Notes: generated from the letters alone by a model not told the origin. DNA of 64,000 bases from Antedon mediterranea (GCF_964355755.1 NC_092673.1:31191001-31255000), one strand, 5' to 3'. Counted from the first letter of the stretch, positions 5,070-64,000 are shown. Numbers and translations are program-made.

Positions 5070-8000
5070 ATGTCTCTGGATTTTGTATCTGAAGCTGATA
5101 CAACTTATCTGACAGACAATTTTTTGCCGTCTGAAGATTGGGGTACGTATAATTAGGCATTCATTCTCGGTTGTATTTTGTTATTTTTTTAGCCCCATTT
5201 TCATTCGGCATCAAATCCAATCAAGCAGAACCGATGCCTTTTAAATTCATTTAATTGGGCCGGGTATCAACCATGGAAACACCACGTACACGTTTACACT
5301 GGCTTAGCCTAAAAACATGACTCTAGCCGACCTAGTATAGCTAGCTAGAGGGCCTAGCTAGGCAGATTAACAATAATATGTTAATTTATATTTAAACTAG
5401 GGCCTAGTTAGATGATTGTTTTTATCTGTAGTGTAGGTCATATATATGTTGATATATATAGTACTGTACTTTAGTAGTAGGCCAACAAAGTAGACTAGAG
5501 GCCTAGTTGTAGTAGTAAGACTAACCCAGTCCTAGCATTATTGTAATTTTATTGTATATAAATAAATACACTGAGCCTATAAAATTTACTGTATTATATT
5601 TTTATTAATTTTACTGTATAATAAATTATTTATATTTAATTTATTAATTAATTTAGATAATGATCTTGGCAAGTTAGACATTTTAGCAGACAGCATATCA
5701 AGTGCCGACCTTCTGAGTGACATTCCACATTTGAAGGTTTGTATAATATTACTTGACAAAATGTAAATTTAGTATCTGTGACAAGTTCTCTTTTTTTCTT
5801 TGCATCCTGTAGTGGGTGAAAGGTAGTGGTGCTTCACTGTCTGTAGGTGATCATGGGTTCAAACTGGCATACCTGATTCTCTGTTGTGATATTTAATGAT
5901 CCCTCTTGCTTACTTTTTCAGTTGAGATTGTGTTGGATGTTACTCTTCTAGTTGTAATGTATTAAAGTCTCTATTTCATTTAATCACTGTTTTAGAATCC
6001 TCTTGGAAATTTTGTGGACTCTAAGGTTACAGACTGGTTTGGTGCTGACCTGGGAAATCCATGGGATCACCTGGATTCAGAAATCAATGAAGTCATTGGA
6101 GGTAAGTATTAAATGTACAATAAAGAAGTGAAATATTTAAGTACCATATTCAAGCTGTTAGTTAAAGGAACTTTATAAAGATATATATGTTTTTGGAAAG
6201 ACCCTACAAAATACAGTACTTCAATGGAGATCCAGCTTTTCAGGAAGTCTGGCTTCATTGATGGCATTCTTCTCATCATAAAGTTGTACTTGCCATAGTA
6301 ATTACATTGTAGTGTTTTTCTCCATGATTGCATATGGGCTAAACATTTGAATGAATAAAAGCATGTTTGATTATTAATATACAGATTATTGTTAGTGATT
6401 AATAACACTTATTTTTTATATTAATAACAGGTATTAATATAAAGGCAGAACCACTGTCGCCTCCACCATCATCTACATGCTCTGAAGATTCTGCCGATAG
6501 TGGTACTCATGTAAGTCAAAGATAAAGAATTTTTTATACAAACCTTATAGTGAAAAATGTAAAACATCCGGGCTACAGCTGAGTAGCATGTAATAAGTGT
6601 ATGACTGGGCTAATAAATCACATAAAAAGGGTGGTCTGAGAGGTTGATCCGTTTGTAATGGGGTATCAAAATGACAAGTATTGTACAGTTTGAAACCACT
6701 CAGAGTGGGATGGAGAGGGAGTACCGCTCTGGGGTGGATATCTAGTATTTTATAATTACTATATAAGCATATAGTTTGTAATGTTAATTTAGACCATCAA
6801 AAGCTTAGTACAGTAATTTCTGAGACTCTGTTCTATTGAAATTTAGAAATTATTACTTAATTTTCGCATTTTCTTTTCATTCAGAGTATTTCAAGTCCAA
6901 CATGTGCACACATAGATTTAAAAATAGAAACACCCCCTCTGAGCCCCCCGCAAGATGAAATGACACCGCTTACTGGTCCAAACTTTGTGCCAACCGTTAA
7001 CGGAGTGAGCGTAGTAAATGAGGTGATAGTCGGGCAGCCAGTGAGGCTGAAGAATGGGAAGCGCATACTACCAAGGCCGCAGACAATACGTCAGGTTATA
7101 ATTCCCAAGACTGATCCAAATATAGTGACGGTATCAACAGCTAATAACATGAAGGTCACTCCAATATCAGGTATGCATTTCTGGGTGTTTTTGTGGGGAG
7201 GGGGTGGGGTTGATTGCGATGCCATTATTAAGGGGATGTATATTGTGTCATCCAATTATTTTAGTAGGTTTCATTTTTTTTTTTTAACTGATAAAATACT
7301 TTTATTGCAACTTTTGAATTTGTTGAATTATACAATATATTATAATATATATTATCCTTTGGGATATCCTCTTTTAGGACACCTTTTATCGCCCTTATTG
7401 GGTGGACACCTTCTTGTGAAGCAAATGTGGAATGATATGTTATGACTTAACACTACAGTCAACCTTTATTTAAAGGAATCTCCTATTAAGACAGGGTATA
7501 ATTTGTTTGGTCCTAGTTGATCTGTAACTTTTAAGTCATGTAAAATATTATTACCACCAGAACTATAAACATTGTGTAGTAAGTATATCATATCTCTGTT
7601 TTAACTTAGAAGTTAATTTTAGAACAAATTTTAATTTCAGTTGCCGGTCAACGTATTGTTCTGGCACCCTCCAACGTGAAACCATTAAGCACAACTTCAG
7701 TGATTACCTCATCTGAGGCTCCGCCAACAAAGCAAGCTAGACTGAGTAATATCAATGTTCCAAAACCTGTTTTAGCCCCAGTTGTTACAGAACCTACATG
7801 TCCCCCCGACATAGATGTAAGTATTTTACGTTTTGGATGTTCTATTACTATTTTTCTCTACTTGTAACTTTTTTATTCAAGAAATCATGTTAGTAGATAA
7901 GTTTGTATATTTAGATTGTGATAAGCTTTGATTAGCTATCTATACCTTATCACCATTTGTCAATTATTTTTTGTTGACAATAAAGAGCAAATTATATTAT

Positions 8001-11000
8001 TTATAAAATTTTCTGACAATAAAAAAATGCTAATTTGATCTGCAACTGCTTTATTTTCAGGTGCGGATATGGAAAAGACAACAAAGAATGATTAAAAATA
8101 GAGAATCTGCTTGTTTGTCTAGGAAAAAGAAAAAAGAGGTAATTTGCAATTGTGAAACAAATATTTCTCTTTTAACACGAATCTTTTAAAAGAACTTATC
8201 TGAGGACACATTAATGCCATGATAGTGTGTCCCTTTAATAAGTGTATTTAATTTACAGGGAATTTTGTACCAACTTATTTTTTAAATGCTAAGAGAAAAC
8301 TTATTTCAGCTACATGAACTAGATGAAAAATAGCATTAAATAACATCAGTATTTATATTTTTTTTCCACAGTATTTAACAAATTTAGAAGTACAGATTCA
8401 TGACATCCAAGAAGAGAATGACGAACTTAGAAGAGAGAATTTATCACTTAAACAACAATTAGAAGCATTAAGACACGACGTAAGTATTCTATGATATCCG
8501 ACTTATCCTAGTTAAGTTGCCTCAACCTTTGGGAGAATAATTAAGCTGTTGGTCCTGTGTAAATTGTTTATTTCTTAACCTATCCTGTTTAAATTTTTAT
8601 ATTAATGGTTTTCTTTTTCAGTATGATCATTTGTCCAAGATGCGATCAATGCTGCCCTCAACGACTAAAACTGCCACATGTTTGTTAGCTGTAGTGTTTA
8701 TTATCGGTTTCAACGTAGCTCCATTAAGGTATGATAAAGTTAATTTTCAAATTGCAAATTGGTTTAATATTGTGTGTACCTTAGTATATTGCATAGATTT
8801 TAGAGAGCTTCTAGTGAAGAAACCCACCCCAGGGCAGGGGATGTCATTTTGGATCCAAACCTTTCATCACCATTGTGGTCATTTTGATACTCCATGTGTA
8901 CCCGGTGTGCAATACCAAAAATGAACAAATGTACTAATGCTCTATATGCATTCCATAGAGCTATAAGTTTCATAGAGTTATAAGTCACATAGAGTATAGT
9001 ATAGAACTATAAGTTGTATAGAGCTATAAGTTGTATAGAGCTGTAAGTTGCATAGAGCTATAAGTTGCATAGAGCTGTAAGTTGCATAGAGCTGTAAGTT
9101 GTATAGAGCTGTAAGTTGTATAGAGCTGTAAGTTGTATAGAGCTGTAAGTTGTATAGAGCTGTAAGTTGTATAGAGCTGTAAGTTGCATAGAGCTGTAAG
9201 TTGCATAGAGCTGTAAGTTGCATAGAGCTGTAAGTTGCATAGAGCTGTAAGTTGCATAGAGCTGTAAGTTGCATAGAGCTGTAAGTTGCATAGAGCTATA
9301 TGTTGCATAGAGCTATAAGTTAATAGAGCTATAAGTTGCATAGAGCTACAGTATATGTTCATTTGAAACCCCGCCCACTGCTCACCCACACTAGTTTTTG
9401 ATATCTTTTTAATGTATTTAATATTTGTGTATTCATTTCAGTGTTTTCAATACGCAGCATGCAGCACCGCAATATATCAAAACCGTTCACAACAGTAGAA
9501 ATTTATTATCTTTTAATGAAAACACTACATCCTTATACAACACCTCCAGCGACCAAGACATAATGGACGTCACGTTCACACAAGAAGAACGCAACCAGCT
9601 TATGTTGTTAAATGATATGAGTAATTATCCGATGTCTAAGGCTCATCCATCATGTCCATTTAATTCTACAGAAGTGTTGAGGTATGTATCTTTATTAATA
9701 TTCCAATCTTAAGGTCCCAGACTCAACCCTAACTGTTTCTACTCTATTTCCTCTTATCAATTAAGAATTTTTCTTAAACAAATCATAAATGGGGGAGAAT
9801 ATTTCTATGAGTTGAAAATATCCTGTCCATTTAACGAGTAAAAAAACTATGGATGACTACAGTATAGCATATATGTAATGTTTGAATGAACAAAATTGGT
9901 TGCTTCTATTTCGAAAAAATATATTGAATATCGAAACATGGCAGGCTATAGGCGCTTGACCTTTGACAAGATCGCCTAAAATTTATAATTTAAATCTACG
10001 ATACTTAGTATGTATATTCAGGAATAGCCGCTCCATAGTCTCTTTGCTTTTCTTCCTTATATCTTATTCTGATTAACTCAAAATTATTTTTACTAACAAA
10101 CATTACTATTTGTATGCCTAGTGTGTAAAAACATTATTGACATAATTTCATAAACATCTTCATGTCGTACAACTACTCGTAACATTTTTTCTCAACTTTC
10201 TATCATCTAAAGTCGTAGTTAGTCATGCCTCGGGTCACATTTTATGGTCTCCGTACAGGTAGGCTACTACATCAGTACTTCTATGAATGGATGACTAGCC
10301 GGTGACAATAACGCTAGTTGGTCATACACAGTACCGTTTTTGATTTTACGATCATTCGGGAAACCACCTCACGACAAGAATTTTAGTCAAAAAACCTTAA
10401 AATTCATTTTTCAACAGTTGTTCTTGTATTTATTTTATTCAAATTTAAAAGAAATTATTGTACTAATAGTTTGCAATATCTAATATATTTCAATTATTTT
10501 ATGTTATTCTGTTTAGGTTAGCAGATAAATTAAAAGGTTGGGTGTTTGGTCACGAACAAGAAAAAAAGAAAAGTGCGCAGAAAAGTAAAAAATCTGTAAG
10601 TATTACATTTATTTTCTAAAATAATTTGTAATAACATTTGTAACTTGTAATGTAACTTTTTATGATTATGATATTAAATGTAAATGTTCACCTGATGTGT
10701 AATCAACACTGTATAAAGCTCTGTCTACACTATCAAACTAGTTTGACAAAAAAGGTTCACCGGTTCTCGTCAGATCACCGAAGTTAAGCAACGTTGGGCC
10801 CGGTTGCGTTCTGGATGGGAAACCGTCTAGAAATCGTGGCGGGTGCTGTATATACTGGAGAGTGATGGTGTAATGGTAATATCGGACTAGCATGTGATAG
10901 GCATGGGTTCGAGGTTATCTGTACCATACTAATTGCATCCTTAGGCAAGATGCTTTACTCTCATTGCCTAATATGGTAGGCGCTGCACTGCTGGCTGCCG

Positions 11001-12096
11001 TGGGTCCGTGGAGGGCCTAATCCGAATTTCCTCACTGAGGACAAATATTAATACAAAATACAAAAATACAAAAATACAAAGGTGTGACGTGCCCAAATAT
11101 GGTAGTGATATGACATCATCATATCCATATATGGGCACATCACATTTTTTTTGTAACATAAAGTTTACCATTTTTGATATAAAAAATTGTATACACATTT
11201 ATAATATTTTATTATTTAAAGAAATCTCTGAAGAGGAGAAAGCGTGACATGGCCCGTAAAATGACTTCTCAAATGGAGAACGTAGATGAGCGTGGCCTGC
11301 AGCTGTATGACAGCCTCTTTGACAGGCGCTACGCGAATCTCCTGAATGCTCTCGACAGGAAAAACGACACATATTATGTTGTGTCCTTTAGAAGAGTAAG
11401 TTGTCAATTAATTCCCATTTACTGATTAAAAAACGTTTTAAATAATATATGTGTTTTTGGCAAGTAAAGGTTTTGAAAACTCTGACAATGTTGACCTGAT
11501 TCAGAGACAACATTTGACATTTAGAACTGTGACTGAACTCAAATATATACATTTACAGTCCATTAGGTGATTACTTTCCTAACAATAAAGTTCTCAATTT
11601 TTTAATTACATATATTCTCCCAACAATTAGGCTGGGGAAAAAACTCTAAACCTGACCTACTCAAAACAAGTGCTCACCATAAAACGACCCTTTGACTAAC
11701 CTATCCCTAATGTATGTAACTTTAATTAATTTGATATATTATAGGATCATCTGTTACTACCAGCACTCCAACATAACAACACTGGAAGACCCAAAATATC
11801 TGTGCTTATGCCAGCCCTAAGATTGAATGGTAAGTGGTGTTTTTTATATCATTTTTAACATACAATGTTTAATGTATATTTTTCGATTATTCTATTTAAA
11901 CACATGTATATCTGTAGATTCAACAGTGGATGATCACATGATGGATCACATGTCCATGATGCAAATAGATTGTGAGGTAATGGATACGCGTGTCATACAA
12001 GTTAAAAATGCTCCAGCGACCTCCACGGCCAAAGATCACATAATGACCGATAACGAACCAATCAAGTTTCATCCAAGAAACATCACAATACCGTGA
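5070..12096 (+). CDS. ATF6: ATF6: ER-membrane bZIP transcription factor
   Basis: Complete 616-aa protein in 14 coding exons: 5070-5142, 5657-5736, 5996-6101, 6431-6510, 6885-7170, 7641-7816, 8061-8138, 8372-8479, 8622-8728, 9442-9681, 10517-10595, 11222-11395, 11745-11829, 11918-12096. All junctions are GT-AG and the phases agree. Human ATF6 has 670 aa, so length is near normal. Order of parts: acidic activation region (residues 1-110), two psi-K-x-E-type sites (IKAE, LKIE) each followed by LSPP or PPLSPP, basic region and zipper (about 268-340; NRESAC then KKKKE), one membrane segment (about 346-364) containing N360-x-x-P363 for S2P cleavage, then an RNLL S1P site at 384-387. The lumenal domain keeps the [15 protein letters not shown] block and both cysteines expected from the family (in HPSCPF and QIDCEV). 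Known role: on ER stress it moves to the Golgi, is cut, and its N-terminal half activates chaperone genes. The start is the first ATG of an exon with a strong donor. Confidence 0.95.
8712..8723 (+). other. S2P helix-breaking motif (N-V-A-P) in ATF6 membrane segment
   Basis: Codons for Asn-Val-Ala-Pro near the lumenal end of the predicted membrane helix of ATF6. In human ATF6 an Asn and a Pro spaced the same way are needed for site-2 protease cleavage. The matching spacing here suggests that regulated intramembrane proteolysis is retained. Confidence 0.8.
8942..9353. repeat. 17-bp minisatellite in ATF6 intron 9
   Basis: About 23 copies of a 17-bp unit, CATAGAGCTGTAAGTTG, with CATAG/TATAG and CTGTAAG/CTATAAG variants. 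It is degenerate at the left edge and most uniform from about 9030 to 9300. Since 17 is not a multiple of three and the antisense unit has no stop, long overlapping antisense ORFs appear in all three frames. These are artefacts of the repeat. Confidence 0.95.
9497..9508 (+). other. Predicted S1P site (R-N-L-L) of ATF6
   Basis: Arg-Asn-Leu-Leu lies 24 residues after the Asn of the NxxP motif; in human ATF6 the RHLL site sits about 25 residues after it. It fits the RxxL rule of site-1 protease. It falls early in exon 10, right after the membrane segment. Confidence 0.8.
10716..11168. mobile_element. MITE family A, copy 1, interrupted by a SINE
   Basis: The left part (10716-10757) matches the family TIR AAGCTCTGTCTACACTATC and the inner AAACTAGTTTGAC arm. 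The right part (about 11080-11168) carries the GTGCCCAAATATGG and ATATGGGCACATCACA core found in the other copies. The outer right TIR is missing. A SINE of about 320 bp separates the two parts. It lies in ATF6 intron 11 (10596-11221). Confidence 0.75.
10757..11079 (+). mobile_element. 5S rRNA-derived composite SINE (SINE3-like)
   Basis: Bases 10762-10855 closely resemble eukaryotic 5S rRNA from about its residue 30 to its end: CACCGGTTCTCGTCAGATCA, GAAGTTAAGCAACG, GGGCCCGGTTGCG, GGATGGGAAACCG and GGGTGCTGTA. This span includes the A-box, intermediate element and C-box of the 5S internal promoter. A tRNA-like stretch follows (A-box-like TGGTGTAATGG, B-box-like GGGTTCGAGG at about 10904), then a body and an ACAAAAAT-rich tail. 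The element splits a family-A MITE, with a short AAAGGT shared at both junctions as a possible target duplication. The first about 30 nt of 5S are absent, so this is not a functional 5S gene. Confidence 0.8.
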
Positions 12097-38126: not shown

Positions 38127-38156
38127 GACACTATCAAATAGAACAGTTAAAGTAGG

Positions 38157-44700: not shown

Positions 44701-47700
44701 GTTTGCTTTCATATCCTGAACTTTGATCACATATAACAAGTGTTTTAAATTTGCTATGCCGACTTGCGGTGTACAAACTTAATATAACGCCTAACGTATG
44801 TTTATGTTTGTCTGTGTTTACAACGACCACACGGCCAATAGAAAGCACTTTGACCTTTGAGTGTTTTATTGATGCAAGCTGTAAAAAAATCAAGAAAACT
44901 ATTCAATTTAGAATAAACAAATAACAATATTATCATTACAAGTATTTAGAATAAACAAATAACAATATTATCATTACAAGTATCGTCAACACTGGCATCA
45001 TTACAATAATTTAATAAATAAAATACATACATAAAACGAAAAGGAGATAAATCATGGAAAAAAATGTAAATATCTAGGATCGCTAATTGACACAGATAAC
45101 GATATGAAACGCCGAAAAACAACTCGCAATATCAGCCTTCAACAACTACAAAGAAATTCTAACAAGCAAAAACTTATCACTAGAAGTAAGAATGAGACTA
45201 TTCAATGTATACGTCAGAAGCATATTTATGTACAACTCAGAATTATGGACAATAACCAAAAAACAAGAGGACGAAATTGACTGTTTCCATAGGAAATTAT
45301 TAAGAAAAATTATAAAAATGAAGTGGCCGTACACAATCAGAAATATAGAACTATATAGCAGAACGAAAGAACTAAAATGGTCAAACCTAATAAGGACAAG
45401 AAAATACAAATGGACCGGACATATGCTAAGGCTTCCAAATTATCATTAACAGAATCCATTCGAAAAGTTAAAAGACCAGTTGGCAGACCAAAAACTACCT
45501 GGATAGGAAACATAAATAAAGAACTCAAAATTAATGACAGACCATCAGACCACCGAAAGAGAGTGATGGAAACGATTAGCATACGCAATGTCTACCCAAG
45601 CATAACGGATGATGATGATGATACATAAGCAATAATAAAAGCATTGTATATCACTTTCATGTTTTTTGGGTTTTTTTTATGTTCAGGATCCCTTCTGAAA
45701 CAAGATTAAAGGGTCATCCTTTGCCATTCCATTATTGTAACTTTTATTTTACCTAAAAGTTATTGTAATATAATGTATGTACGTTGTTTGATGCTTTGTT
45801 TATATGGATAGAAATAAATATAATTATTATATTAATCATTATCATCACCTCATAATCATTCTCAACACTGTCATCATCATTATCATTCTCAACATTTTCA
45901 TCATCACTGTTATCATTTCCAACACTGTCATCATCATTTTTATCATTCCCAACACTGTCATCATCATTGTTATCATTCTCAACACTGTCATTATCATTCT
46001 CAACACTGTCATCAATACTGTCATCATCATTGTTATCATCATTGTCATCATAAATCTTATCATTATAATCACAATGTCATCATTATTCTTATCATTATAA
46101 TCACAATGTTCATCATTTCACCTGTGTTTCCTGTCGTAATTTATTAAGTGCCGTACAGGTGTCATAATACTTCTCCAAGTCTTCTTGACACAAGTAACAA
46201 TACACTGGCTTGATCGACTCCAGCTGCTTTGTCAGAACTTTCAGTTCCACCTCTTGCTGGTGCGAATCCTTCCGTGTGTGGAACTCTGCGAAGCTTCTCT
46301 TCATGACATCTTGAACACGGATGACGGCAACGGTCAACAGGTTCAGAATCATGGTGTAGGTCAAACGAAATCTTGACTCCAAGTGTGTTGGCTTCCCCTG
46401 ATATGTAACAAAATTAATTTAACAAAATGTCATACAGATACAGTGGAATCCCAAATTTAGGACACCCCTATTCAAGGAAAACTCTATAAGGGGACACCTC
46501 AGTCAAATTAACAAGGGGCAATACATGTTTTAACAATGCTGCAGGGAACCTCTCTTCAGGGAACACTTACGGGGAAATTTTGTTGTTTTTTTTTTTTTTA
46601 TTCATACACACAAAACAGTGAGCACTAACTCGCCAATTAGAGAATGGATTAAGTAAATTAATAATTAATAAACTAATTTATCGTGCTTATATACTAAGTC
46701 TCATTTGAGGCTTAGGGAGTGGAGTTGAAAGAGTCGTGAGTTACAACCCTGGCACTAGGTCATGATTGAACCCTGGACCTTAGGATTGGAAGGCAAGTAT
46801 GTTAACCACCAAGCTACAGCTCCTGAAGATGACCCTTAATTAAGGGTTCTATACCATTATTTCCCCATTGCAGTCAACCCTATATCTATATGTTTTACAT
46901 GATCTATTCAACATACCAGCATCATAGACTGGAGATCTGATATCTCTGGTACATCACCCTTACATAGTATGATCACTAGACCAGTTGTGTCCAGACCTCT
47001 TCTGCCAGCCCTCCCTGCCATCTGAATGTATTCTCCAGGCACAAGATTCCTCATACACGTGCCATCATGCTTACGAATGGAGTCAAAGACTACAGTCCTT
47101 GCTGGCATGTTCACACCCATGGCAAAGGTCTCAGTGGCAAACAAAAGCTGTGTGAAAGTGAAGCATGGGTATAAATATGAATAAATAAATGATACAGGTA
47201 AAGGCCAACTCGGACAGCATCATACGACGAGGCCAGACAAAACTTCTTGACTCGTCGGTGCTGTCCAAGATGAATCCGGACAAGAAAAGTTGTTTTGTCA
47301 TAGTGTCATGCACGGTTTTTAAGTCATCAGGAGAACATTAAACATGTTTCATTTTTTCTCAACGAGATGATTTGTCGGTCCTCGGCGTATGACTCTGTCT
47401 GAGTTGGCTTCAACAGACTGAAGTTTAAATGAATATATAAAACTATTTATCTGTGTTTTCCTAATTACGATGACACATGGTCTGACATTAATGCTTTAAT
47501 GATCTTTGTGCACTGTTGTGATCGCTATTTCCTCTTATGGCTAATAGGAGCATATTACTACTTTGTCAAAGCAACAGTTCCTTACTATTTCAACCTATTA
47601 TTTGAACACCAGTAATTTACCTTAACTAAACCTCTTTGGAACAGCATTTCAACCACCTCTTTTAATATTGGTAGCACACCACTATGATGAACTGCAACTC

Positions 47701-50700
47701 CTTTCTTAAGGAGATCTTTCATGTGGAGAACCTGCCAATAGTATACAAAAGTATTATCATCAGAACAAATACACAGTTTTAACACACATCTTTAAAAATC
47801 TACAATTAACACAAGAATTATTTTAAATATTATTCAATATTACAAAATTAAATTTACATTTCTATGAGAAAATGACCAAAAGGTCACATTTTCAACTTGC
47901 CTGTGGAAGTCTCCTATCAGAGCCTTTTAATCGACTGATGCATTTCTGTAAGAATATTTGTATCTGGCTTTTCTCGCTGCTTGTTGTAAGGTCAACGGTC
48001 GTCAGGGAAGATGAGTTCTCGTCGCATTTCTTTTTTGAGAATGTGAAAACGACAACTGGAAGCTGAGCTTTCTTGCGTAACATTTCAACGAGTGATAAAT
48101 ATACGTTCTTATCCTAAAATAGAGTTCAGAGATGAGTAATGAAAAACAAACATATTTGTGGAAAGGGTATTGAATTGGCTACTACTGTACACAGCTTGTG
48201 AAGAAAAACAAAAACAGTTGTTGTTGTTGTGCTGCATATTCTGTGGTTGGCAAAAAAACAATATGCTCATGGCTGGCTCAACCAAAATTTAAAAAGTTGT
48301 CTCCGGTCTAAATGAGTAGATACATAAATGAACCAACAATAAACAGATGCATTTTTGTTCTACAGTACTTACATTTTTCGAAAATCCGCCTCTTCGATCT
48401 TTAGAACCAAAGCTTTGCGATGATTTAGTCTCCCGATCTTTCTTAGCATTCAAAGCTTTTTTATAACTATACAACGACAGAAAATCTAAAATGTATTCTA
48501 AGCTTTCATTTTCAGCAGTGTTTTTATATAGATTAGGTTATGGTATTTATTAATTAAAGATGGAAAAAAAAAGGGCGAAAGAATTGACAATGAAATCCGA
48601 GTTCACAAGAGGAGTGTGATGGTTGACTATTGTGAGAATGTTATGGCATATAACAATACAACAAGCACTCTCCATTACTCTGGTGGGTGAGGTACAGGAG
48701 AGAAACTCTAGGTCATATATACACCAGTCAACCATATACACAATCCAGTAGAGTATGCCCTGAGGCACTAGTAAACAACATTTATTAATTCAAAAATGGC
48801 AATAACAATGTCATGGAATTGATTTATGGGCAGGTTTTTAAAGTGGCTTCATAGGCATGAACCACATGTAATTTACCTCCGCCAAGGAGGTATATGTAAT
48901 CGGTAGCGTGTGTTTGTTTGTTTGTTTGTTTGTTAGCAAGATTACTCAAAAAGTAATTACAAGATCTTTACCAAAATTAATAGACATATAGATATGTGGT
49001 CAAGGACCATTCCATGGGACCATAGTCCCAATTCTGGACCACTTTTTAGTATACTTTTTTAGACCTGCTAGTGTTAAAAGATAGGACAGAATTTTTCAAA
49101 AGCCGGCGAGCAATCTTAAAGTAACAAGTAAACTGAAATTGCATTTTCTCGAGAACTACTTGTTCAAAAAACTTCATTTTTAAACAAGAGGCAAGAGTTA
49201 TAATTTGTGATTTGTAATTTTAAAACATAATCTGATTTAATGTGCACGTTTTTTGATGCGGGTAGTTTAAAAAACCTATTTCTTTTCAAATTCACTCGTT
49301 TGATTTTCGCGTTGCTGTTCTATTGTTAGCCGACTGAAGCTATTGTTAATTGAAAGGCTTGTTACATAACCATTACACCAAACTCGCATACACATGTTTG
49401 TAATGAAATTAGCCTAAATCACAAACAGCATTAAGACACGCACAAATATATATATATTTTTTTTTTACCGGAGAAATCTTATGTAGGAGAATTTTACAGT
49501 AGGCGGAGGTATGCCCTCTCGGAGTGGCTTTCTAGTTTGAAGATGTATCAGCAACATTTTGATCTTAATGATTGCCTTAGCACCTTACCCTATTGTATCC
49601 ATTTTGTTGTTCTTGTCCACAATCAAGAAAAGTTGGTCACTGGTTTTATTGCTGTTACCAGTGTACAGGTAGTGCTCCAAAGGAACTGGTCGCTTTAATG
49701 TGCTAATTACATAAATATATTTTTGTTTTGTCCTCCTGAAAAAATCAAAATGAAATGGTAATAAATTATAAGAAAAGAAACCAAAATATCTATAAAAATG
49801 GTTTTTTTTTATTTTATTATTTTGTATCATCATTATTTGATTTGGGATTTTAAAAAAAGTTTTTCGACTACATAGATTGGAAATGAAATAAAACTTACCC
49901 AACCCAATTAGCAAATTCCATGGTATTTGGTATCGTGGCACTAAGTAGTATAACATTTACAGTACTGGGTAACATAATGAGAACCTCTTCCCACACAACA
50001 CCTCGCTTTGAAAATAAATAAAATCAGAAAATACAAAAAAATATCCTACAATTTGAAACAAACTCCATAGTGTGAATCATTGGAATTATGGATAAATACG
50101 GTAATTGTAGGTACTAATACTAATGAAAATACAAATATGTAATGCGCCAATTCCAGCAGTAAGTGATCAAAGGCGCGGTGTATGAGAGCTCAATTTGAAA
50201 GAAAAAGATGAGTTTTCAAGGCAGATTTAAAGGCGATAGTAGAAGAACATGATCTAATAGAGGCGGGTAGGTCATTCCACAAGAGAGAGGCAGCAGAAGT
50301 AAAGGTGCTTAGGCCATACGTTTTAGTGTTAAAAGTTGATATGGAAAGGAGATTTTTTGAAGACGAGCGAAGGCGACAGGAAGGTATGTGAAGAGGAAGG
50401 TCAGAGAGATATGAAGGGGATTTGAACGAGAGAGCTTTATAGGTTAAGAGGTTTCCAATAGACATACTTTTGTAAGGACAATCAAAAAATAACTACAATT
50501 TGAAAACAAGCACATGTGAATTATTGAAATCATGTATATATACGGTACATTGTAGGTACTAATAGATATATTTTTTGTAAAGAAAATGAACAAAAATTAC
50601 CTCTGCATCACTAATATAGTGTACTTCATCAAAGATGACCCACTCTAAATCTCTAATAGTATCAGATCCATTGTATAACATTGATCTACAGGAATTATGA

Positions 50701-53700
50701 TAAACAATTTAGTGTGGTAGTAGGAATGAGGTAAGATTATCAGTAAAAATGAAGAGCTTTGTATGTCAAGTAATGGGGTTTAGCCTGGTGTACTAGTTCA
50801 CACAGCCACTGTCACACATTCATTACTTATAGTAGGCCTCATAGTTGCAAAATTAATAAAATGGCTATGTCAACAGTTTATGATTTTACGCTCTAGCGAA
50901 CACAGGATACTCGTCGTCCTCCCCTAACCGTCCTGTTTCGTAAAGTCGCTATTATACAAAATGGTTAAAATCTACAGTACTATATAGCTTGCACAATGAC
51001 TTGCTAACGAAGCTCAAATCCCACTAAAATTATAAAATGTGTATAATAACTAAGACTATTAGAAAACATAATCATTTTATTTGATACCTTAGAATCTCTG
51101 TGGTCATTATGAGACAAGAGGCTTTGTCGTTCAACTGGACATCACCGGTCAGCAGTCCAACATCTTCAAAGGTGTTTCTAAAATCTCTATACTTCTGATT
51201 AGACAATGCCTTGATAGGAGATGTGTATACAGTTCTAAAATGAAGTTATCATTTAATTAAATCATTTATATATATTTAATTTAGGTGTATTGACAAGAAC
51301 AAAATTTGTTTTTGATAACACATGAGATGCTGTATTACCAAATATTCCTATGGTACTGGGAAAATATTGTTGTATGTAGAGATACAGCACTGAGTATCGG
51401 GTAGTAAAATTCAAATGAGTAAAGTTTACACATACTTGGTTCCATGTTTGAGAGATAGAGCAATCGCGTACTCGGCTACAACCGTCTTTCCAGCTGACGT
51501 GTGTGCCGACACAAACACGCTCTCGTGGTTCTCAAGACAAAGAATGGCTTGCTTCTGGAACACATCCAACTCAAATGGCCACTGAAGAGAACAGAAGACA
51601 AAGATATGAAGCAAATCGAACACAATTTTGATGTATAACGTGATAAAGTATAATAAGAATTGTTTTACAGAATAAAGCCTTAAAACCTACTTTTAATATA
51701 TTCACAATTATTATCTAATTCATTGTGTGATAAAATGTATCCAACAAGAATTTGAACGTGCTCAGACACGAAGCCCCTGTGGTCTAATGTTTATGATGCT
51801 CGCTTTGTCAGCATGATGTCACAGGTTTCAGTCCTGTCAGGGAATTTTATGGGATCAATTTATGGGACTATATTATCAATTGCAATGATGTTACAGTGTC
51901 CCAGATTTAAACTTTGTTTAAATCTATTTAACTTCCATGTGTTAACAGTACCCTTGATTTATTAATGAGTATTTTCGTTTTATTTTCAATTTGGCAACTA
52001 CAGGGGCAATGTGCATGTTGGTATGACAAAATCAAATGCTATGCATGAACGAAAGCAAAATGTCTACACTTACCTGGTAAGCCATATTTGGTATCTTTTT
52101 ATAAAAGTCACCAACAGGGGCCGTGACATCCACCTTGATGGCCCATTCCTTTTTAGCAGGTTCTGCTTTTACGGTCTCTGTTGGCCTAGATATTTCATCA
52201 GCCTGTTGGTCAAATAAATCTACAACATTGTAAGAATACTTTACCATGTTGTAAAGATATTTATTTAGATTTATAAATAATTTTATTTACATACACGTTG
52301 GAGGACATCTTCTAATAACTCGGCATCTTTTCCATCATCTTCTGTGGGTGTGTTGTTCTAAGAATTATGGAATATTATTCATATTATAGCAATGTCATAT
52401 CAGGGAAATCTATATTCAGAGAGAGACAGAGGCCTCTTGATATTAATGTTAAAAGAATAGAGAGGGCACGCTATTTAATATCTCATATGGAAGATACAGA
52501 TTTTAATATAATAAGCTTTTGTGACGAGACCAATATCAACCAATACCTGTTCACTTGTTTTTTCATCCTCTTCATCTTCCTCATCCCCAAGGTCAAATTC
52601 ATCATCTAAGGTCATAAGGTCAGTCAGTTTCAAGACTGCTTCAAGCGGTGTTGTTCCATTATCAGTCGCATCTTTAAAACACATTCCATTCTCAAACCCA
52701 GGAGGAACGGTCAGAAGATCTTTATGAAAAAAAACACAATATATTATAACAAACCTAATTATATTCTTGACAATTGATTGGTTGATTTTGTATCATATGG
52801 CAGGGGTCAAAGCTTATCTAGCCCATCATTAATCATTAGTAAAACATTTTTAAAAACAAGCATGAGTATATTCTCAGCGGATTTGTGCCACTTCATCTGA
52901 TTTGACTCAAAAATTTACCATCATCATCAAAATTAACTTGAATTGATTCAGTGATTGCATCAATGGATGGTTCGTCAAGACCTCCAGGCCAGAACGGTTT
53001 GTTAGATGAATGACCTCTTACTGCGTCTACTGGTGCACCAGGCTGCCGGAGCATTGACAAGGAGTTTTGAGCAGTAAATCCTGTGTTTTCTAGTGGCACC
53101 TACATAGAGTAAAATTAGTTCTGATAATATTATGATACAGTCCTATTCTTAAGCTCTGTCTCCACTATCAAACTAGTTTGACAAAAAAGTGTGATGTGCC
53201 CAAATATTGTAGTGATATGACATCATCATGTCAATATACAGTATGGGCACACCACATTTTTTTGTCACATAAAGTTTGATAGTGTAGATAGGGCTTTAGA
53301 GATTAGAAGAATATTTATATTATGGTATCAAACCTCACCTCTTTAAATTCAAGTAGTTCGCCTGTTGTTTGGTTTCTCTCAACTTGCAACTTGTACTGTA
53401 GAGGGCAAGCTTCAACATTGAATAAACTCTCAACATTTTTTTCTCTTTCCCAAAACCTAAAAAGACAATTTAATGATTAAAGAACTTGAACTGCAGTGTT
53501 ACCTGTAAGGGGCCAAATGTACCTGGGGTGCAATAGTAGTATACAACTGATCTCACTTTTGAGCACGCTCCACCTTATGTATGGGTAAACGTTCTGGAGT
53601 GTTAAGGTATTCTGCTATCTGGGATTCCAGGCTTTTGAGAACGGGAGGTGGTCCAACAGGAAGCTGGAAAAAATAATTTATTACATTTACAAAATGTAAT

Positions 53701-54350
53701 TTTTAATATATAAACACCCAGCAATTAACAATACCAAATTAATCTTTCGGAGTATAATAATATAATAATACATTTTTTTTTATATAGCGCATTTTAAGTA
53801 AAACAAATCAATCCCAGTTTTCAAAAAAGACTTACTGTTGTTATTGTGGGCATGAAGTCCTCATTATTTACTTCAACTGTCTGCACATTGTTACCCAACC
53901 CACACTGTACCAATCGGAACTTCATCTTTTCTATTTCATTTATATCTAAATTAGAATTAAATTTTTTTAAATATATTAATAAAGCAAAATCAAATTCAAG
54001 GTTTTATTTCTGACAAGAGGTATATAATGGAAGATTCATTATTCTAATTTTGAGATATTACTTGTGTGTAGGCTACCTGTACCTTTTCACATTTGAGTAC
54101 TAGGCCCACACATAGCCCGATTGGGAAATTCCCATATGTAACGCAACTCTAGCAGGCGGGGACGCAGCTGCTTGTGGACAGGATACCAGCCTAGTAGGCT
54201 TAGGCTTAGCACCTACATTTTTCATCCATTCAAAGGCCTCATTTTAAAAATCAACATGGATTAATTAATATTTTATCATATGTTCATACGATTAAAACGA
54301 AGTTATAATAGCTATTCACCTGTACATTGCTTATTTTCCTGATAAGCCAT
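41750..54350 (-). CDS. SKIV2L: SKI2 RNA helicase (SKIV2L)
   Basis: Complete 1242-aa protein (human 1246), 24 coding exons (minus strand, 5' to 3'): 54350-54320, 53945-53836, 53663-53557, 53456-53339, 53099-52919, 52719-52547, 52357-52295, 52202-52074, 51581-51436, 51234-51088, 50685-50601, 50005-49899, 49735-49589, 48466-48373, 48113-47901, 47731-47621, 47147-46917, 46397-46122, 44878-44505, 44327-44117, 43926-43816, 43328-43110, 42777-42637, 41953-41750. All are GT-AG except a GC donor after 47901. N-terminal SKI3/SKI8-binding arm; AHTSAGKT (330-337, ATP binding); DEVH box (421-424); SAT (452-454); [32 protein letters not shown] (696-705); arch insertion; C-terminal DSHCT-type domain ending [18 protein letters not shown]. 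As the helicase of the cytosolic SKI complex it unwinds and threads mRNA into the exosome for 3'-5' decay. Nothing is broken. Confidence 0.96.
42340..42485. mobile_element. MITE family A, copy 4
   Basis: CTAAAGCTTTGTCTACGCTAT and ATAGTGTAGACAGAGCTTAAG ends. It lies in the last intron of SKI2 and abuts a tRNA-SINE fragment (42486-42550). Confidence 0.85.
42486..42552 (-). mobile_element. tRNA-SINE body fragment, copy 3
   Basis: Bases reading TTGAGACTTAGGGAGTGGAG then TCATGAGTTACAACCCTGGC match the body of the SINE at 46690-46755 without the tRNA head. It sits directly beside a family-A MITE. Confidence 0.65.
43342..43425 (-). pseudogene. Partial duplicate of a SKI2 exon inside the next intron
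   Basis: Blocks CTGTGTCAGAATTAACT and CCTTTCAGTAGCAGGGACATG repeat parts of the exon at 43110-43328 (CTGTGTCAGTATTAACT and CCTTTCAGTAGCAGCGACATG at about 43226-43305). The order is the same but the segments between are shortened, so it cannot code for the full segment. It lies between exons 43816-43926 and 43110-43328. Confidence 0.7.
45050..45630 (+). mobile_element. Degenerate LINE reverse-transcriptase 3' fragment
   Basis: Pieces of a non-LTR RT C-terminus: [14 protein letters not shown] (frame 1), [15 protein letters not shown] into [20 protein letters not shown] (frame 2), then [15 protein letters not shown] (frame 3), ending in a GAT microsatellite (45607-45623). At least two frameshifts kill it. 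It is antisense to SKI2, in a large intron. The YNSELW and GRPKTTW motifs and the microsatellite tail suggest an RTE/Daphne-like clade, but the clade is a guess. Confidence 0.75.
45825..46112. repeat. ATCATC/ATTATC-type minisatellite
   Basis: Many copies of TCATCATCATTGTTATCATT plus CTCAACACTG in variable order, ending only a few bases before the splice donor of the 46122-46397 exon of SKI2. ORFs on both strands (Ile/Val and Met/Thr runs) are low-complexity artefacts. Confidence 0.9.
46660..46835 (-). mobile_element. tRNA-derived SINE, copy 2
   Basis: Read on the minus strand: AGCTTGGTGGTTAACATACT, B box GGGTTCAATCATGAC, TGCCAGGGTTGTAACTCACG and AGCCTCAAATGAGACTTAG. This is the same family as 37307-37560, inserted in the sense orientation of SKI2. 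Confidence 0.75.
47203..47410. mobile_element. MITE-like element with ~38-bp inverted ends
   Basis: The left end GCCAACTCGGACAGCATCAT (continuing ACGACGAGGCCAGACAAA) is the inverted complement, with about seven mismatches, of the right end TTTGTCGGTCCTCGGCGTAT (continuing GACTCTGTCTGAGTTGGC). The inside shows no coding. It lies in an SKI2 intron. Confidence 0.7.
47897..47904 (-). other. Non-canonical GC-AG splice donor in SKI2
   Basis: The exon ends CAG and the intron begins GCAAGT. Protein similarity (RLPQ then VLHMKDLL) fixes the junction, no GT fits the phase, and read-through meets a stop two codons later. AG|GCAAGT is the strong-consensus form of natural GC-AG introns. Confidence 0.85.
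48880..49540. mobile_element. Dispersed element with CCTCCGCC ends
   Basis: Starts TTACCTCCGCCAAGGAGGTA, then a GTTT microsatellite (48909-48934) and TTAGCAAGATTACTCAAAAA. It ends GTAGGCGGAGGTATGCCCTC TCGGAGTGGCTTTCTAGTTT. The ends are partly inverted (CCTCCGCC / GGCGGAGG). I recognise this as the style of a widespread invertebrate repeat, but I cannot name the family. It lies in an SKI2 intron; no coding was seen. Confidence 0.6.
50175..50470 (-). mobile_element. LINE reverse-transcriptase C-terminal fragment
   Basis: A 91-aa minus-strand frame (50190-50465) carries the typical LINE tail pattern: [18 protein letters not shown], then [37 protein letters not shown]. This is the end of the RT-containing ORF2 of CR1/L2-like elements. 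It is 5'-truncated, has no adjoining RT core, and lies in an intron of SKI2 in sense orientation. Confidence 0.8.
51770..51862 (+). mobile_element. tRNA-like SINE fragment of another type
   Basis: CCCTGTGGTCTAATGTTTAT resembles a tRNA A-box region, and ACAGGTTTCAGTCCTGTCAG resembles a B box. No clear tail is visible. It lies in an intron of SKI2. Evidence is weak. Confidence 0.4.
53151..53298. mobile_element. MITE family A, copy 5
   Basis: AAGCTCTGTCTCCACTATCA and TGATAGTGTAGATAGGGCTTT ends around the conserved GTGATGTGCCCAAATA core. It lies in a 5' intron of SKI2. Confidence 0.85.
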
Positions 54351-55234: not shown

Positions 55235-57109
<1,875 letters not shown>

Positions 57110-58197: not shown

Positions 58198-58338
58198 AAA
58201 CCATCAAACTGTATGTGAATGTGATGTGCTCATATGGACATGATGTCATATTACTACCATATTTGGGTATATCATTACCATATTTGGGCACATCACACAT
58301 GTTTTTCAAACTAGTTTGATAGTGTAGACAGAGCTTTA
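58198..58338. mobile_element. MITE family A, copy 6 (left end degraded)
   Basis: The right end TTTGATAGTGTAGACAGAGC is intact and the core GTGATGTGCTCATATGGAC is clear, but the left TIR is reduced to CATCAAACTG. It is intergenic, between MORN5 and SLC44A. Confidence 0.75.
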
Positions 58339-58639
58339 GGCTATCTGAAGAATCAAAACCATGAGTATTGGGATAGTTGACTTATACAAAATAAATGTTG
58401 TACTGTGAACGTATAAGTAACAAGGTGAATAATGACTGCTATATACATATTATTACAAAGAAATACTTATTATAGAACTACCCATACCTTTTATAAATGT
58501 CCTACAGAACTTATGCCTCTTTTTTACAAGGTAACCCTAGTCAAAGGTGATTAATATTGCATTGTATATATTTACAAAACTATAACTCACATAACTATAA
58601 CACTCTGTGTATGGAAGGACATTTGTATTAAAAATTTAA

Positions 58640-59490
58640 AATATTACTGTATTTGAGTAACTATTATCCCAAGCTCGGGTATAATATCACCCCACAATTT
58701 AGGCTATTTTTAGATACAATTGTCTAGTAACTTTTAATGAATGCAATTCAAGTATAACCCCACCCCATAATTTAGGCTATTTTCAGACACAAGTGCCTGG
58801 TAACTTTTAATGAATGCAATTCAAGTATAACCCCACCCCACAATTTAGGCTATTTTTAGATACAATTGCCTAGTAACATTTAATGAATGCAATTCAAGTA
58901 TAACCCCACCCCATAATTTAGGCTATTTTCAGACACAAGTGCCTGGTAACTTTTAATGAATGCAATTCAAGTATAACCCCACCCCACAATTTAGGCTATT
59001 TTCAGACACAAGTGCCTGGTAACTTTTAATGAATGCAATTCAAGTATAACCCCACCCCATAATTTAGGCTATTTTCAGACACAAGTGCCTGGTAACTTTT
59101 AATGAATGCAATTCAAGTATAACCCCACCCCATAATTTAGGCTATTTTCAGACACAAGTGCCTGGTAACTTTTAATGAATGCAATTCAAGTATAACCCCA
59201 CCCCACAATTTAGGCTATTTTCAGACACAAGTGCCTGGTAACTTTTAATGAATTCAATTCAAGTATAACCCCACCGCATAATTTTGGCTATTTTCAGACA
59301 CAAGTGTCTAGTAACTTTTAATGAATGCAATTCAAGTATAACCCCACCCCATAATTTAGGCTATTTTCAGACACAAGTGTCTAGTAACTTTTAATGAATG
59401 CAATTCAAGTATAACCCAACCCATAATTTAGGATATTTTCAGACACAAGTGCCTGGTAACTTTTAATTCAAGTATAATCCCATCCCTGCT
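58640..59490. repeat. 74-bp tandem satellite
   Basis: About 11 copies of a 74-bp unit reading CATAATTTAGGCTATTTTCA GACACAAGTGCCTGGTAACT TTTAATGAATGCAATTCAAG TATAACCCCACCCC. CACAATTT and CATAATTT forms partly alternate. It is degenerate at both ends. Confidence 0.95.
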
Positions 59491-60307
59491 TTCCTCCAAA
59501 ATGTTATACTCAAGACAAGACAAATTATTTACAAACTAACTATTTCCAGCCTCTTTTTGGTTTCTTCATTCAATGGTCATTATATAAACATTATACAAAT
59601 ATAATTATATAGACTGTATTATAATTAATAATATTATTATACAGGAGCATGTTTTGTTTCTTAACAGTTAATTTTGAGGTAGAATTCCATAACGAAAACA
59701 CCAATATGATAAGAAATATTTTTCCTGTTTAGTTTTTAATGATTGTTAGCACACAAACTTTATTCTCTGATATTATCTGATTGGATAAAACCATCTTCAT
59801 AATTATTTTAATTAAAACAAAAAGGAATTTAGAAATGGTCCTACAATCAAGAAATGGACTAACTACAGCATCTGGGTTCAAACCTGAATAAGGTACAATT
59901 TCTTATTTATCTTTTTTTACATACTTATCTTACAGTACATTTTTTCAAATAACAAATCTACCCTAATGTGGATAAAATATTAAAAACAATTTCAATTCTT
60001 CTTTAAATATATTATATTAAATCAAAACAATATTTAAACATAAAGTGCTATTCCTTTATAAACTTTATTGGACGGTCATATAATTACACATTATAGGTTT
60101 TGCACACATCTACTACTATTGTTATACCTACTGTAAATGAAATATTCTAACAATTCAACATTTTCATTAATATATTAAATTAAAACAATACTTAAAAATT
60201 ATATTCCTCTTTTTATAAACTTATTTTATTAGCGTCGGATGTTTCAAATTTATTATCTTTTTTTTGGACGGTGGTAAATTTTTGGAGCACAATACAATAT
60301 ACATCTT

Positions 60308-63300
60308 CTAACTTTTATCATCTTCAAACTTATTTTTCTTGCCAACGATTTTCATCAGTTCTTTGCTCATGAAGTACGGTTTCTCGGCGGACCCGTCGTG
60401 TCTTTCTAAATCTTCAACTATAAGACACAAAAAGAAATTATATTATAAATTATATTATTATTATGACTGGAACACCAACAAAACTTATTGAACTGACATC
60501 AATAATTGTGTGATTAATTAATCCAATTACTCAAAATTAGTCCATATGTCATCTGACAACAGTACAATTGAAAAGCATAATCAGGGGAGCAAAAGAAAAG
60601 AACAAAATAGGGAGGAGTGCAGTGGCTGGTAATTGGCTGATGATTTTAATCAATTCAATGAATGAGTATTTAGCTTACAGTATAGGAGCGACAGCATATC
60701 TTTAAAATTTCAAAATCACAAAATACTAAGTTTCATCATCAAAAATACTTACGAAAACAGAGAAAGAGTGTGTCTACAGCCATGTCATAAACACCAAAGA
60801 AAATCTTGGCAACGAAAAAAGAACCAATTCCAATTATCTGAAACAAAACACGATTATTGTTTAGTTACCATTAAATACAAGTCACCATTTCATAATAGGA
60901 AATATAATTTGTTAATATACTGAAATAGAGATAGTACTAGTTGTCAATGAATAAAATTAAAATGCACTCTATTTTGCATGTTATACAGAACAATGAAGGG
61001 GTAGTATCGGTACTACAGCTCTGTCTACACTATCAAACAAGTTTGACAAAAAAAGTGTGATATGCCCAATTATGGTAGTGATATGCTCAAATATGGTAGT
61101 GATATGCTCAAATATGGTAGTGATATGACATCATCATGTCTATATATGGGCACATCATATTTTTTTGTTAAATAAAGTTTGATAGTATAGACAGAGCTTT
61201 AAATTAAAATTCAAGATGTCTACTTACTATGACTGGCGTCCAATAATAATTTAATTCTGGAACAGGCAGAACGTCTGATACCCAGGAGAGATTGTTTGTG
61301 AAATAGTAGAACGATCCGATGGACATTGCTGCCATGACCGTCAATATCCCAAAGGAAAGTAAGAAATCTGTAACCTTATTAATCACAGCAACTCTACAAA
61401 ATAAAAATTCAGATTTAGTGTAAATCATTAAAATATAGTTGTGACTAGTTTTGACAAAGCTGACTAGTTTTGACAAGTTCTAGTTTTGACTAAGTTGACA
61501 AGTTGTGACTAGTTGACAAGTTGTGACTAGTTGACTAGATTTGACAAGTTGACTAGATTTGACAAGTTGACTAGATTTGACAAGTTGACTAGTTTTGACA
61601 AGTTATGACTAGTTGACTAGTTTTGACAAGTTGACTAGTTTTGACAAGTTTTGACTAGTTTTGACAAGTTGACTAGATTTGACAAGTTGACTAGTTTTGA
61701 CAAGTTATGACTAGTTGACTAGTTTTGACAAGTTGACTAGTTTTGACAAGTTATGACTAGTTGACTAGTTTTGACAAGTTGACTAGTTTTGACAAGTTGT
61801 GACTAGTTGACTAGTTTTGACAAGTTGACTAGTTTTGAAAAGTTGACTAGTTTTGACCAAACCAGTTATTATCATTTGACTTGATTCAAAGAAATAAATT
61901 AATCAGTTGTTGTAAAATCTATGCTGTATAAACTATCTTTACCTCACAATATTCCTAAGAAGGAGAAAGAATGCATTCTTTGCTGAAGTACAAAAGTTCT
62001 TCCCATAGACAGCAATCTGTTGAAAATAATATGAAGAAAAGAATATGAAGAAAAGAATGTTTAATTATTGTGAGTTGGGTTAACGCTTTTAATGCACTTC
62101 TAAAATTCACTCATTCACTGTGAAAGTCAGACCTACTGTACCAAAACCATCACTGCTTCCCTCACTTCAATATAAATTTCTGTGCTAGAACTATCATAAT
62201 GTATTATGTTTAAATATTATATTTGTACAGAAAGTAAACGAAAAATTACACTATACAAAATCTTACCAGAATATAAGCATTTTTGTTTAAGAATCTCATG
62301 AATTTTTCAAGGCACCAGAAACAGCACTTGAGGCATTTGATAAGGAATTTGACAAAGGCATTCTCATAGCCTTTCAGCTTGTGATCAATGTACTCCAACA
62401 CGACCCTGATCATTTGGATGACTGCAATGATGAAAGATCCAAATGCTAACGACCCAAGATGGTATCTATACAGAAAAAATATTGTTTATTTCATCTATTG
62501 GCAAATGCACAAAATAAATTGAAACCGGATACTTTAACCATGTAACAGATGGAATACATTGCAATGTTTCTCATTAAGTTCTGTCTACACTATCAAACTT
62601 TATGTGACAAAAAAATGTGATGTGCTAATATATGGACACGATGATGTCAATTCACTACCATATTTGGGCACATCACACTTTTTTCGTCAAACTAGTTTGG
62701 TAGTTTAAACAGAGTTTATGAAGTTCATTTTCACAAACGCGCCATTTACTACAAGTAAAAACATGATTCTGAGAATGCACGAAATAATCTTTTTATGTGC
62801 CATCTGCATAAAACGAAATCTCCCTTTTGTCTGAGTGAACAATATTTCTCAGATATACTGTATCACCACGGCCACGGCTCAATTCTACCTTGAGAATCGT
62901 ATTGATTTTATTCTTAATGTCAAAGATAATTTTAAAGATTTAAGGAACCCTCTACCGCATCATCACACACAAAACATATGCTAACAATTTTATATTTTCG
63001 GATTGAGGATAATGATTATGACTAAATAAAGGGCATTGACCTGGATTTTTTGAGAATAAGAATATTATTACAACGTTTAAGAGAGGCTTACAACTCTAGT
63101 TGAATGCTAAACTTACCTTATTGCTCTGTATAATGACTTAACAATTGGGAAGGCTGGTATGTCACTAGGCTTGGTGAAAGCCCAGTAGTAAGAAGCAAAC
63201 GCACCAGCTAAGCAGACTTGGTCAAGTGCGGAGACAAACGCCAGCAGCCAAAACAAACCGAACAAATTGTAGATTTGCAGGTACAGATAGAAGTTGTCCA

Positions 63301-64000
63301 GGCCATAATGTTCAAACAAACACAAGGCTGTGGTGTTTGGATAGTCTGTCTCAAACGTCTAGAAAAAAAGACATCAATATTTCAACTGACTATAATTTGA
63401 CAAATTGAGTTTAATATATTTTGTTTTAGGAAGCTATGTTAAAATTGAACTTAATGCATACCAAGGTGGTCACGTATTCACGTATTCAATTGAACACTAG
63501 TCAGGGCCGTAGCCACCAGTATGGTTGGTATAGGTTTCAACATGATCACTTTTTGACAGAGGCCATTGACAACCCAGTGGCTTGAACAGAGATTGTTCCT
63601 TTTTCTTGCAAAAACTGCACAAAAACCTTTATTTCTTGTGGCTACATCATTGCTAGTGGGTGGAGTGACAGTAGTGGCTTGTAATGGCCAATATGGGGTT
63701 GTGGAAACAAATTTTGGGATTGCAGGGGGATACAAAAAAAAACCACAGCTACACATAAAAAACAATTTGGAGAATCGCCTGTTCTATTCTATTTAATATA
63801 TTAATTTTCTTAATTGTACAGTAGTTTAATTTGTTTAATTTTCTAGGGAGCTAAAGACAACTGTTTTTTTTCTGGACTTTTACTAGTGGTTGTGTTGAAC
63901 TTTGACATTACTTACGTCCTTTGTACAGTCAGACCCATTTGTCAGGTTATAGGCATCATCATCCGGAACAGCAGCCGTGATGTAGGTGGCAGCACCAGCG
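60308..64000 (-). CDS. SLC44A: Choline transporter-like protein (SLC44A2/4/5 type), 3' part
   Basis: Last seven exons of a minus-strand gene that runs off the right edge: 64000-63916 (partial), 63358-63117, 62465-62267, 62016-61943, 61393-61228, 60837-60753, 60417-60308, all GT-AG with agreeing phase. About 320 C-terminal residues are present out of roughly 700 in the family. Recognisable CTL blocks: [83 protein letters not shown], and the end [32 protein letters not shown]. Several membrane spans are visible, and two sequons (NLT, NGS) lie in an extracellular loop. Human members transport choline (CTL1, CTL2) or thiamine pyrophosphate (CTL4). The tail is closest to the CTL2/CTL4 branch. Substrate cannot be told from sequence. 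Confidence 0.93.
61015..61202. mobile_element. MITE family A, copy 7 with inner triplication
   Basis: AGCTCTGTCTACACTATCAA and TTTGATAGTATAGACAGAGC ends. The inner AAATATGGTAGTGATATGCT unit is repeated, which makes this copy about 40 bp longer. It lies in an SLC44A intron. Confidence 0.85.
61440..61865. repeat. GACTAGTTTTGACAAGTT minisatellite in SLC44A intron
   Basis: About 23 copies of an 18-bp unit TTGACTAGTTTTGACAAG with GATTTGAC and TTATGACTAG variants and changing higher-order arrangement. It begins about 45 bp beyond the splice acceptor of the 61228-61393 exon. Confidence 0.95.
62577..62719. mobile_element. MITE family A, copy 8
   Basis: TTCTGTCTACACTATCAAAC left end; the right end is mutated (TTGGTAGTTTAAACAGAG). 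The core TGTGATGTGCTAATATATGG and TTTGGGCACATCACAC is clear. It lies in an SLC44A intron. Confidence 0.8.
63480..63790. mobile_element. Intronic dispersed repeat (GGGCCGTAGCCACC type)
   Basis: CAGGGCCGTAGCCACCAGTA at the left and GGGGGATACAAAAAAAAACC at the right bracket about 300 bp in an SLC44A intron. The opening phrase recalls ends of repeats common in invertebrates and fish, but I cannot assign a family. ORFs on both strands show no similarity I recognise. Confidence 0.35.

Follow-up and report, generated by a model that had tools for sequence, protein, structure and literature searches.

The stretch considered here, a 64-kb window on a crinoid chromosome (C4:31,191,001–31,255,000), carries genes for ATF6, SKI2 (SKIC2/SKIV2L) and a choline transporter-like protein of the SLC44A family, all inside positions 5,070–64,000, together with MORN5 and a P5B ATPase. 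We regard the window, with a probability of roughly 0.86, as a piece of a conserved ancestral segment that became the major histocompatibility complex (MHC) and its paralogous regions (paralogons) in vertebrates, and the grouping of its genes is probably older than vertebrates. In a genome-wide search, 21 of 30 placed markers of the human MHC and of its paralogons on chromosomes 1, 9 and 19 lie on chromosome C4, against none of 17 control genes. This content, with the pro-orthology of the SLC44A gene described below, supports the proposal of an earlier note on this DNA that the linkage predates the vertebrate genome duplications.

MHC markers, complement-type genes and the SLC44A family

The genome searched comprises 354 Mb in 18 contigs. 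Human query proteins were joined in batches for the searches, and the marker matches are exon fragments, mostly 45–95% identical. The controls were PCNA, TPI, TBP, HPRT, RPS3, SOD, NME, CTNNB1 and nine ribosomal proteins; the excess of markers on chromosome C4 has a Fisher probability of 1.1e-6 against them, and a binomial probability of 9e-15 for a chromosome making up 10.2% of the genome. Most markers lie on the side of the chromosome that holds the window: NEU1 (26.60 Mb), DDAH (27.08), GTF2H4 (27.46), RPS18 (28.17), RPL7A (28.24), LSM2 (28.29), FLOT1 (28.39), RPL35 (28.80), CSNK2B (28.93), PPP1R11 (29.04), RXR (29.36), AIF1 (32.32), SURF4 (33.25), EHMT (33.40) and WDR46 (35.21, placed by Pfam family). 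Around the window at 31.2 Mb, the interval 26.6–35.3 Mb (8.7 Mb, or 2.5% of the genome) contains 12 of the 20 MHC-proper markers, and in an earlier count 11 of 14 MHC-type genes of chromosome C4 fell inside one 6.8-Mb stretch (scan P 4e-5). BET/BRD is at 23.03 Mb, and a second group at 7.3–11.6 Mb consists of STXBP1 (7.27), PBX (7.65–7.72), AK1 (9.36), NOTCH (9.81) and PSMB7 (11.57). RXR, BET/BRD, PBX and NOTCH each have one top-scoring locus, all on chromosome C4, copy number being taken from match identity. The gene content of the whole scaffold could have counted against the linkage and came out in its favour: RXR and BRD are on chromosome C4, as are EHMT, PBX, NOTCH and a predicted C3/C4/C5-type gene, which the earlier note had named as genes to look for, along with DXO and STK19, which lie elsewhere.

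The nine placed markers off chromosome C4 are DXO, STK19, RING1/2, PSMB5/8, RNF5, RPL12, RPL10A, RPS10 and NDUFA8. The proteasome genes are thus split, with the PSMB7 type at C4:11.57 and the PSMB5/8 type at C8:7.09 Mb. Human queries for CLIC1, PFDN6, NELFE and AGPAT1 gave no match in the genome, perhaps because these genes are too distant exon by exon, and the four were excluded from the counts, for or against. DXO and STK19 form a pair at C1:18,983,400–18,990,900, adjacent as in human class III, and further DXO-like genes occur on C2, C8 and C11. RING1/RNF2 (C7:13.986 Mb) and RPL12 (C7:14.312 Mb) are 0.33 Mb apart and are possibly a second ancestral piece. Intron-poor copies of a NEU1-like sialidase with long open frames occur at C5:1.19, 3.48 and 24.33 Mb, besides the intron-bearing NEU1 at C4:26.6 Mb.

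A Pfam search for the thioester domain (TED) found four tandem genes at C4:30.417–30.518 Mb, about 0.67 Mb from the window. It overturned an apparent absence of complement-type genes from this chromosome, which had been drawn from a query with the TED of complement C3 alone. The first gene of the run has a TED, an A2M_recep domain and, downstream, an NTR/C345C domain whose E value of 1e-4 is just over the curated cut-off and which shows the cysteine pattern of complement factors. Its tail matches the gamma chain of human complement C4 (E 1e-7), a C-terminal part that A2M and CD109 do not possess; the TED by itself is roughly equally close to CD109 and to complement C3. Judged by these features, this gene, the one of the four that was read, is of C3/C4/C5 type. 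Human complement C4 lies between SKIV2L and ATF6B (PMC1309616). Other TED genes of this genome, partly in tandem, are at C11:5.49–5.55, C8:15.55–15.63, C2:37.01, C11:2.03, C1:37.17, C3:2.65 and C4:8.38 Mb.

Genes of the SLC44A2/4/5 type are found in two places. Three tandem copies lie at 31.25–31.37 Mb on chromosome C4, one entering the window and the others beginning near 31.345 and 31.36 Mb; on C10 there are four intronless tandem genes of 725–742 amino acids (15.795–15.819 Mb), presumably retro-derived and expanded. A tree of 12 rows was built, SLC44A3 and A5 being left out. One clade (support 100/100) unites the copies on C4 and C10 with human SLC44A2 and A4; the two human proteins are each other's sisters (100/99), with the window gene outside the pair, and genes on C6 and C11 group with SLC44A1. 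By this placement the window gene is, as far as the tree tells, the pro-orthologue of at least human SLC44A2 and A4. The earlier note had suggested such pro-orthology and had asked for the tree beforehand, and the window gene joins the human pair with full support.

Genes of the window and its surroundings

All five gene identities given in the earlier note proved correct by domains, bit scores or sequence identity. ATF6 (5070..12093, plus strand) was read in frame, with a Pfam bZIP_1 match at 8e-12. Its first coding exon is at 5070, the bZIP is encoded at about 8069–8143 and 8369–8479 and the luminal part at about 11231–12046; the bZIP resembles human ATF6, and so does the luminal block YVVSFRRDHLLLPA. 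The P5B ATPase (ATP13A2/3/4/5 type; 24880..36231, minus strand) scores 547 bits against the PDB entry for ATP13A2 and 278 against P5A. Its catalytic exons lie at 27.0–33.0 kb, and the outer exons (25–26 kb and 36 kb), placed by eye, are less sure. SKI2 (41750..54003, minus strand) has Ski2_N (2e-32) and DSHCT (9e-55) domains and scores 992 bits against human SKI2W and 595 against MTR4; its N-terminal exon is at about 53.9 kb and its last exon ends at about 41.75 kb. MORN5 (55238..56648, minus strand; Pfam MORN 1e-11) is 72% identical over 144 amino acids to human MORN5. The 3' exons of the SLC44A2/4/5-type gene (60311..64000, minus strand) were recognised by PF04515 matches, exon alignment and the tree. 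This gene is cut by the end of the window and extends about 12.7 kb further, to C4:31,267,690 (window coordinate ~76,690). ATF6, SKI2 and MORN5, like EXOSC2 nearby, occur at a single locus in the genome. The description of the window genes as single-copy therefore holds for these three, and fails for SLC44A, with seven copies of the 2/4/5 type, and for the P5B ATPase, with four (three further copies are on C3). A satellite array of about 8.5 kb (window 14,617–23,166; periods 89, 196 and 286 bp) lies between ATF6 and the ATPase, and further arrays are at 311–2,455 (101 bp) and 58,688–59,467 (73 bp).

The gene cluster runs past the window on both sides, with EXOSC2 and ATP13A1 upstream and the SLC44A tandem copies after it. 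EXOSC2/RRP4 (C4:31,166,786–31,171,302) is about 20 kb upstream of the window and ATP13A1, a P5A ATPase (C4:~31,082,000–31,096,400; PDB P5A 235 bits against 74 for P5B), about 95 kb upstream. ATP13A1, EXOSC2, ATF6, SKI2, MORN5 and SLC44A thus lie within about 0.29 Mb in this crinoid, and their relatives are split among four human regions. The human positions are 9q34 for EXOSC2, 9q33 for MORN5, 19p13 for ATP13A1 and SLC44A2, 1q23 for ATF6 and 6p for SKI2, with further ATF6 and SLC44A relatives on 6p and an SLC44A relative on 1p.

The genome was taken as that of a crinoid because of an exact match to a crinoid-diagnostic neuropeptide. An L-type SALMFamide precursor with a peptide ending GLRFHKGAPF-amide is encoded in all three crinoid species studied (PMC9793003). 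A degenerate DNA pattern for this peptide matches the genome exactly once, at C5:24,566,751–24,566,782, in an exon (GLRFHKGAPFGKR) that reads in frame as ...RGLRFHKGAPFGKR; the estimated probability of a chance match is of the order of 1e-5. Upstream of the window, two tandem genes for small secreted precursors (MSSFQLILVIVCIVAIASIDAG...SLRRALDELYQKLELPGLRV/IGRK) lie on the minus strand at C4:31,154,152–31,154,736 and 31,159,715–31,160,113. The pair has a C-terminal amidation site and is neuropeptide-like. A PDF-type identity was considered for it and found no support, either as a Pfam match or in PMC9793003.

Probable common descent and its alternatives

Human class III genes are named here by current symbols, with the older equivalents in brackets. 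The human order includes SLC44A4 (C6orf29), EHMT2 (BAT8), NELFE (RDBP) and SKIV2L, and also DXO (DOM3Z), STK19, C4B and ATF6B (CREBL1), and the MHC belongs to a set of four paralogous regions at 6p21.3, 9q33–34, 1q21–25/1p11–32 and 19p13 (PMC1309616). Under common descent, an ancestral segment would have been quadrupled in the vertebrate lineage by two whole-genome duplications, giving the MHC at 6p21 and the paralogons on 1, 9q and 19p. Genes would then have been lost reciprocally among the four vertebrate copies, while the segment would never have been duplicated in the crinoid. Inertia would have kept the genes on one chromosome by descent as their order was slowly shuffled within it. A few close neighbours (ATF6, SKI2 and SLC44A) would have stayed, most class III genes would have moved 1–5 Mb apart, and DXO–STK19 and RNF5 would have relocated to other chromosomes. 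Genes confined to 6p in human (SKI2, CSNK2B, LSM2, GTF2H4) are interleaved on chromosome C4 with genes confined to 9q (EXOSC2, MORN5, RPL7A, RPL35, SURF4), the pattern predicted by reciprocal loss. The linkage evidence compares one crinoid genome with human, and from these two we infer that the linkage goes back to a common ancestor, that its age would be deuterostome or older and that the genes would remain clustered for no functional reason.

Several observations weigh against this account. DXO and STK19, which in human directly adjoin SKI2, form their pair on C1; RNF5 is on C3, RING1/2 and RPL12 are on C7, the PSMB5/8-type gene is at C8:7.09, and NDUFA8, a neighbour of MORN5 in human, is on C2. 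In the 6.8-Mb block, any three of 14 MHC genes would fall within 59 kb of one another with a probability of about 0.07. About 11 large contigs, set against 23 ancestral linkage groups, imply many fusions, and to Nakatani et al. the larger proto-MHC chromosome (MHC with the natural killer complex, NKC, and the leukocyte receptor complex, LRC) is an artefact of fusions (PMC8302630).

The first of these points bear on whether anything has been conserved at the scale of 60 kb. Under ordinary macrosynteny, chromosome C4 would carry the ancestral MHC linkage group with its order randomised, and ATF6, SKI2 and SLC44A would be close by chance; we put this at slightly less than even odds. Because a triple of this tightness arises in 7% of random placements, the micro-cluster is weak evidence by itself. 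EHMT, CSNK2B, NEU1, DDAH, LSM2 and AIF1 share the chromosome segment but are 1–5 Mb off, none of them within about 0.5 Mb, and DXO–STK19 is off the chromosome altogether, which speaks for this reading. However, human class III holds the same trio inside a span of a few hundred kb (gene order from PMC1309616), and the probability that this specific triple comes by chance to lie within 59 kb somewhere in the block is about 2e-4, although it was noticed after the fact. The trio may therefore be a surviving micro-linkage. The 'proto-MHC class III block' of the earlier note stands as regards the tight trio and the markers on chromosome C4, but not as regards compactness, with other class III genes 0.7–5 Mb off and DXO, STK19 and RNF5 on other chromosomes. 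Chromosome C4 is thus of the proto-MHC kind, but its class III genes are scattered along it rather than packed into a compact block.

It is also possible, though on balance doubtful, that the MHC-related genes of chromosome C4 come from at least two ancestral linkage groups, joined independently in crinoids and in vertebrates. The MHC-proper set at 26.6–35.2 Mb is spatially apart from the set at 7.3–11.6 Mb, RING1/2 and RPL12 keep together on C7, and a fusion has been argued on the vertebrate side (PMC8302630). The number of large contigs suggests about 11 chromosomes in this crinoid, whereas 23 linkage groups are given for the ancestor of echinoderms (PMC11175523), and a chromosome such as C4 is therefore likely a fusion. 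The part with NOTCH and PBX may have come from another ancestral linkage group through such a fusion. The MHC-proper block around the window would nevertheless be unaffected, and within it RXR, EHMT and AIF1, each represented in human at 6p21 as well as 9q34, are found with the 9q-only genes RPL7A, RPL35, SURF4 and EXOSC2. Since the two groups are separate, the case for common descent is strongest for the right-hand block (26–35 Mb) with the window. Selection for co-regulation could also hold such a cluster together, the genes concerned acting in stress (ATF6), RNA decay (EXOSC2 and SKI2, of the cytoplasmic exosome pathway) or immunity (complement), and EXOSC2, an exosome cap subunit, lies within about 61–73 kb of SKI2, the exosome helicase. 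We consider this very improbable: there is no bidirectional promoter, since about 25 kb separate EXOSC2 from ATF6 and the genes SKI2, MORN5 and SLC44A share one orientation, and the ~8.5-kb satellite (300-bp class) separates ATF6 from the ATPase. Nor was any shared promoter seen that would point to a function of operon-like kind.

Relation to known proto-MHC regions

Among living echinoderms, crinoids are sister to all the rest. No published report of an echinoderm proto-MHC was found in the open-access papers searched. In another invertebrate, the placozoan Trichoplax, an ancient linkage of MHC-region genes has reportedly been claimed. A close counterpart is found in amphioxus (Abi-Rached 2002 and Castro 2004, as cited in PMC10751288). 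As far as that source describes it, the amphioxus proto-MHC shares with the crinoid one unduplicated region with single RXR, NOTCH, PBX and BRD genes, together with a C3-like gene; it also holds PSMB genes, of which the crinoid has the PSMB7 type on C4 and the PSMB5/8 type on C8. Of the framework genes by which that source recognises a proto-MHC, RXR, BRD, PBX and NOTCH are all on chromosome C4 in the crinoid, with a C3-like gene linked. Against the amphioxus region so described, the crinoid is an ambulacrarian; it adds SKI2, ATF6, SLC44A, EHMT, CSNK2B, NEU1, DDAH, LSM2 and AIF1 and a tandem array of complement-type genes, all within about 7 Mb, whereas NOTCH and PBX are 20 Mb off on the same chromosome. 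Proto-MHC linkage as such was already known from amphioxus; new here are its presence in a crinoid, the wide range of class III genes and the linkage of a complement-type array.

The crinoid segment has in common with human class III the genes SLC44A4, SKIC2, ATF6B, EHMT2, complement C4, NEU1, DDAH2, LSM2, CSNK2B and AIF1, each through a pro-orthologue or a family member. In contrast to human, the genes follow a scrambled order across about 7 Mb, DXO–STK19 and RNF5 are elsewhere, and EXOSC2, MORN5 and ATP13A1 (9q, 9q and 19p in human) are interspersed. The human paralogons on 1, 9q33–34 and 19p13 each keep a subset of the RXR, EHMT, AIF1, PBX, NOTCH, BRD, ATF6 and SLC44A families (PMC1309616), whereas the crinoid has a single unduplicated set in which genes of different paralogons are interleaved.

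The case for a proto-MHC older than the vertebrate duplications, and for its contents, has been made chiefly in amphioxus and reportedly in a placozoan. It has been disputed as an artefact of fusion (PMC8302630). With one locus each for RXR, BET, PBX and NOTCH, a tandem array of complement-type genes and nine or more class III families, crinoid chromosome C4 would date the linkage to the deuterostome ancestor or earlier, and the question is now directly testable with existing chromosome-level genomes. The chances appear evenly balanced that this ancestor had a class III-like neighbourhood, with a C3/C4/C5-type gene, SKI2, ATF6, SLC44A and EHMT a few Mb from RXR and CSNK2B. If it did, the part of the MHC concerned with innate immunity and stress would be older than chordates, with only the antigen-presenting genes added later, and crinoids would be a living reference for the ancestral class III-like neighbourhood.

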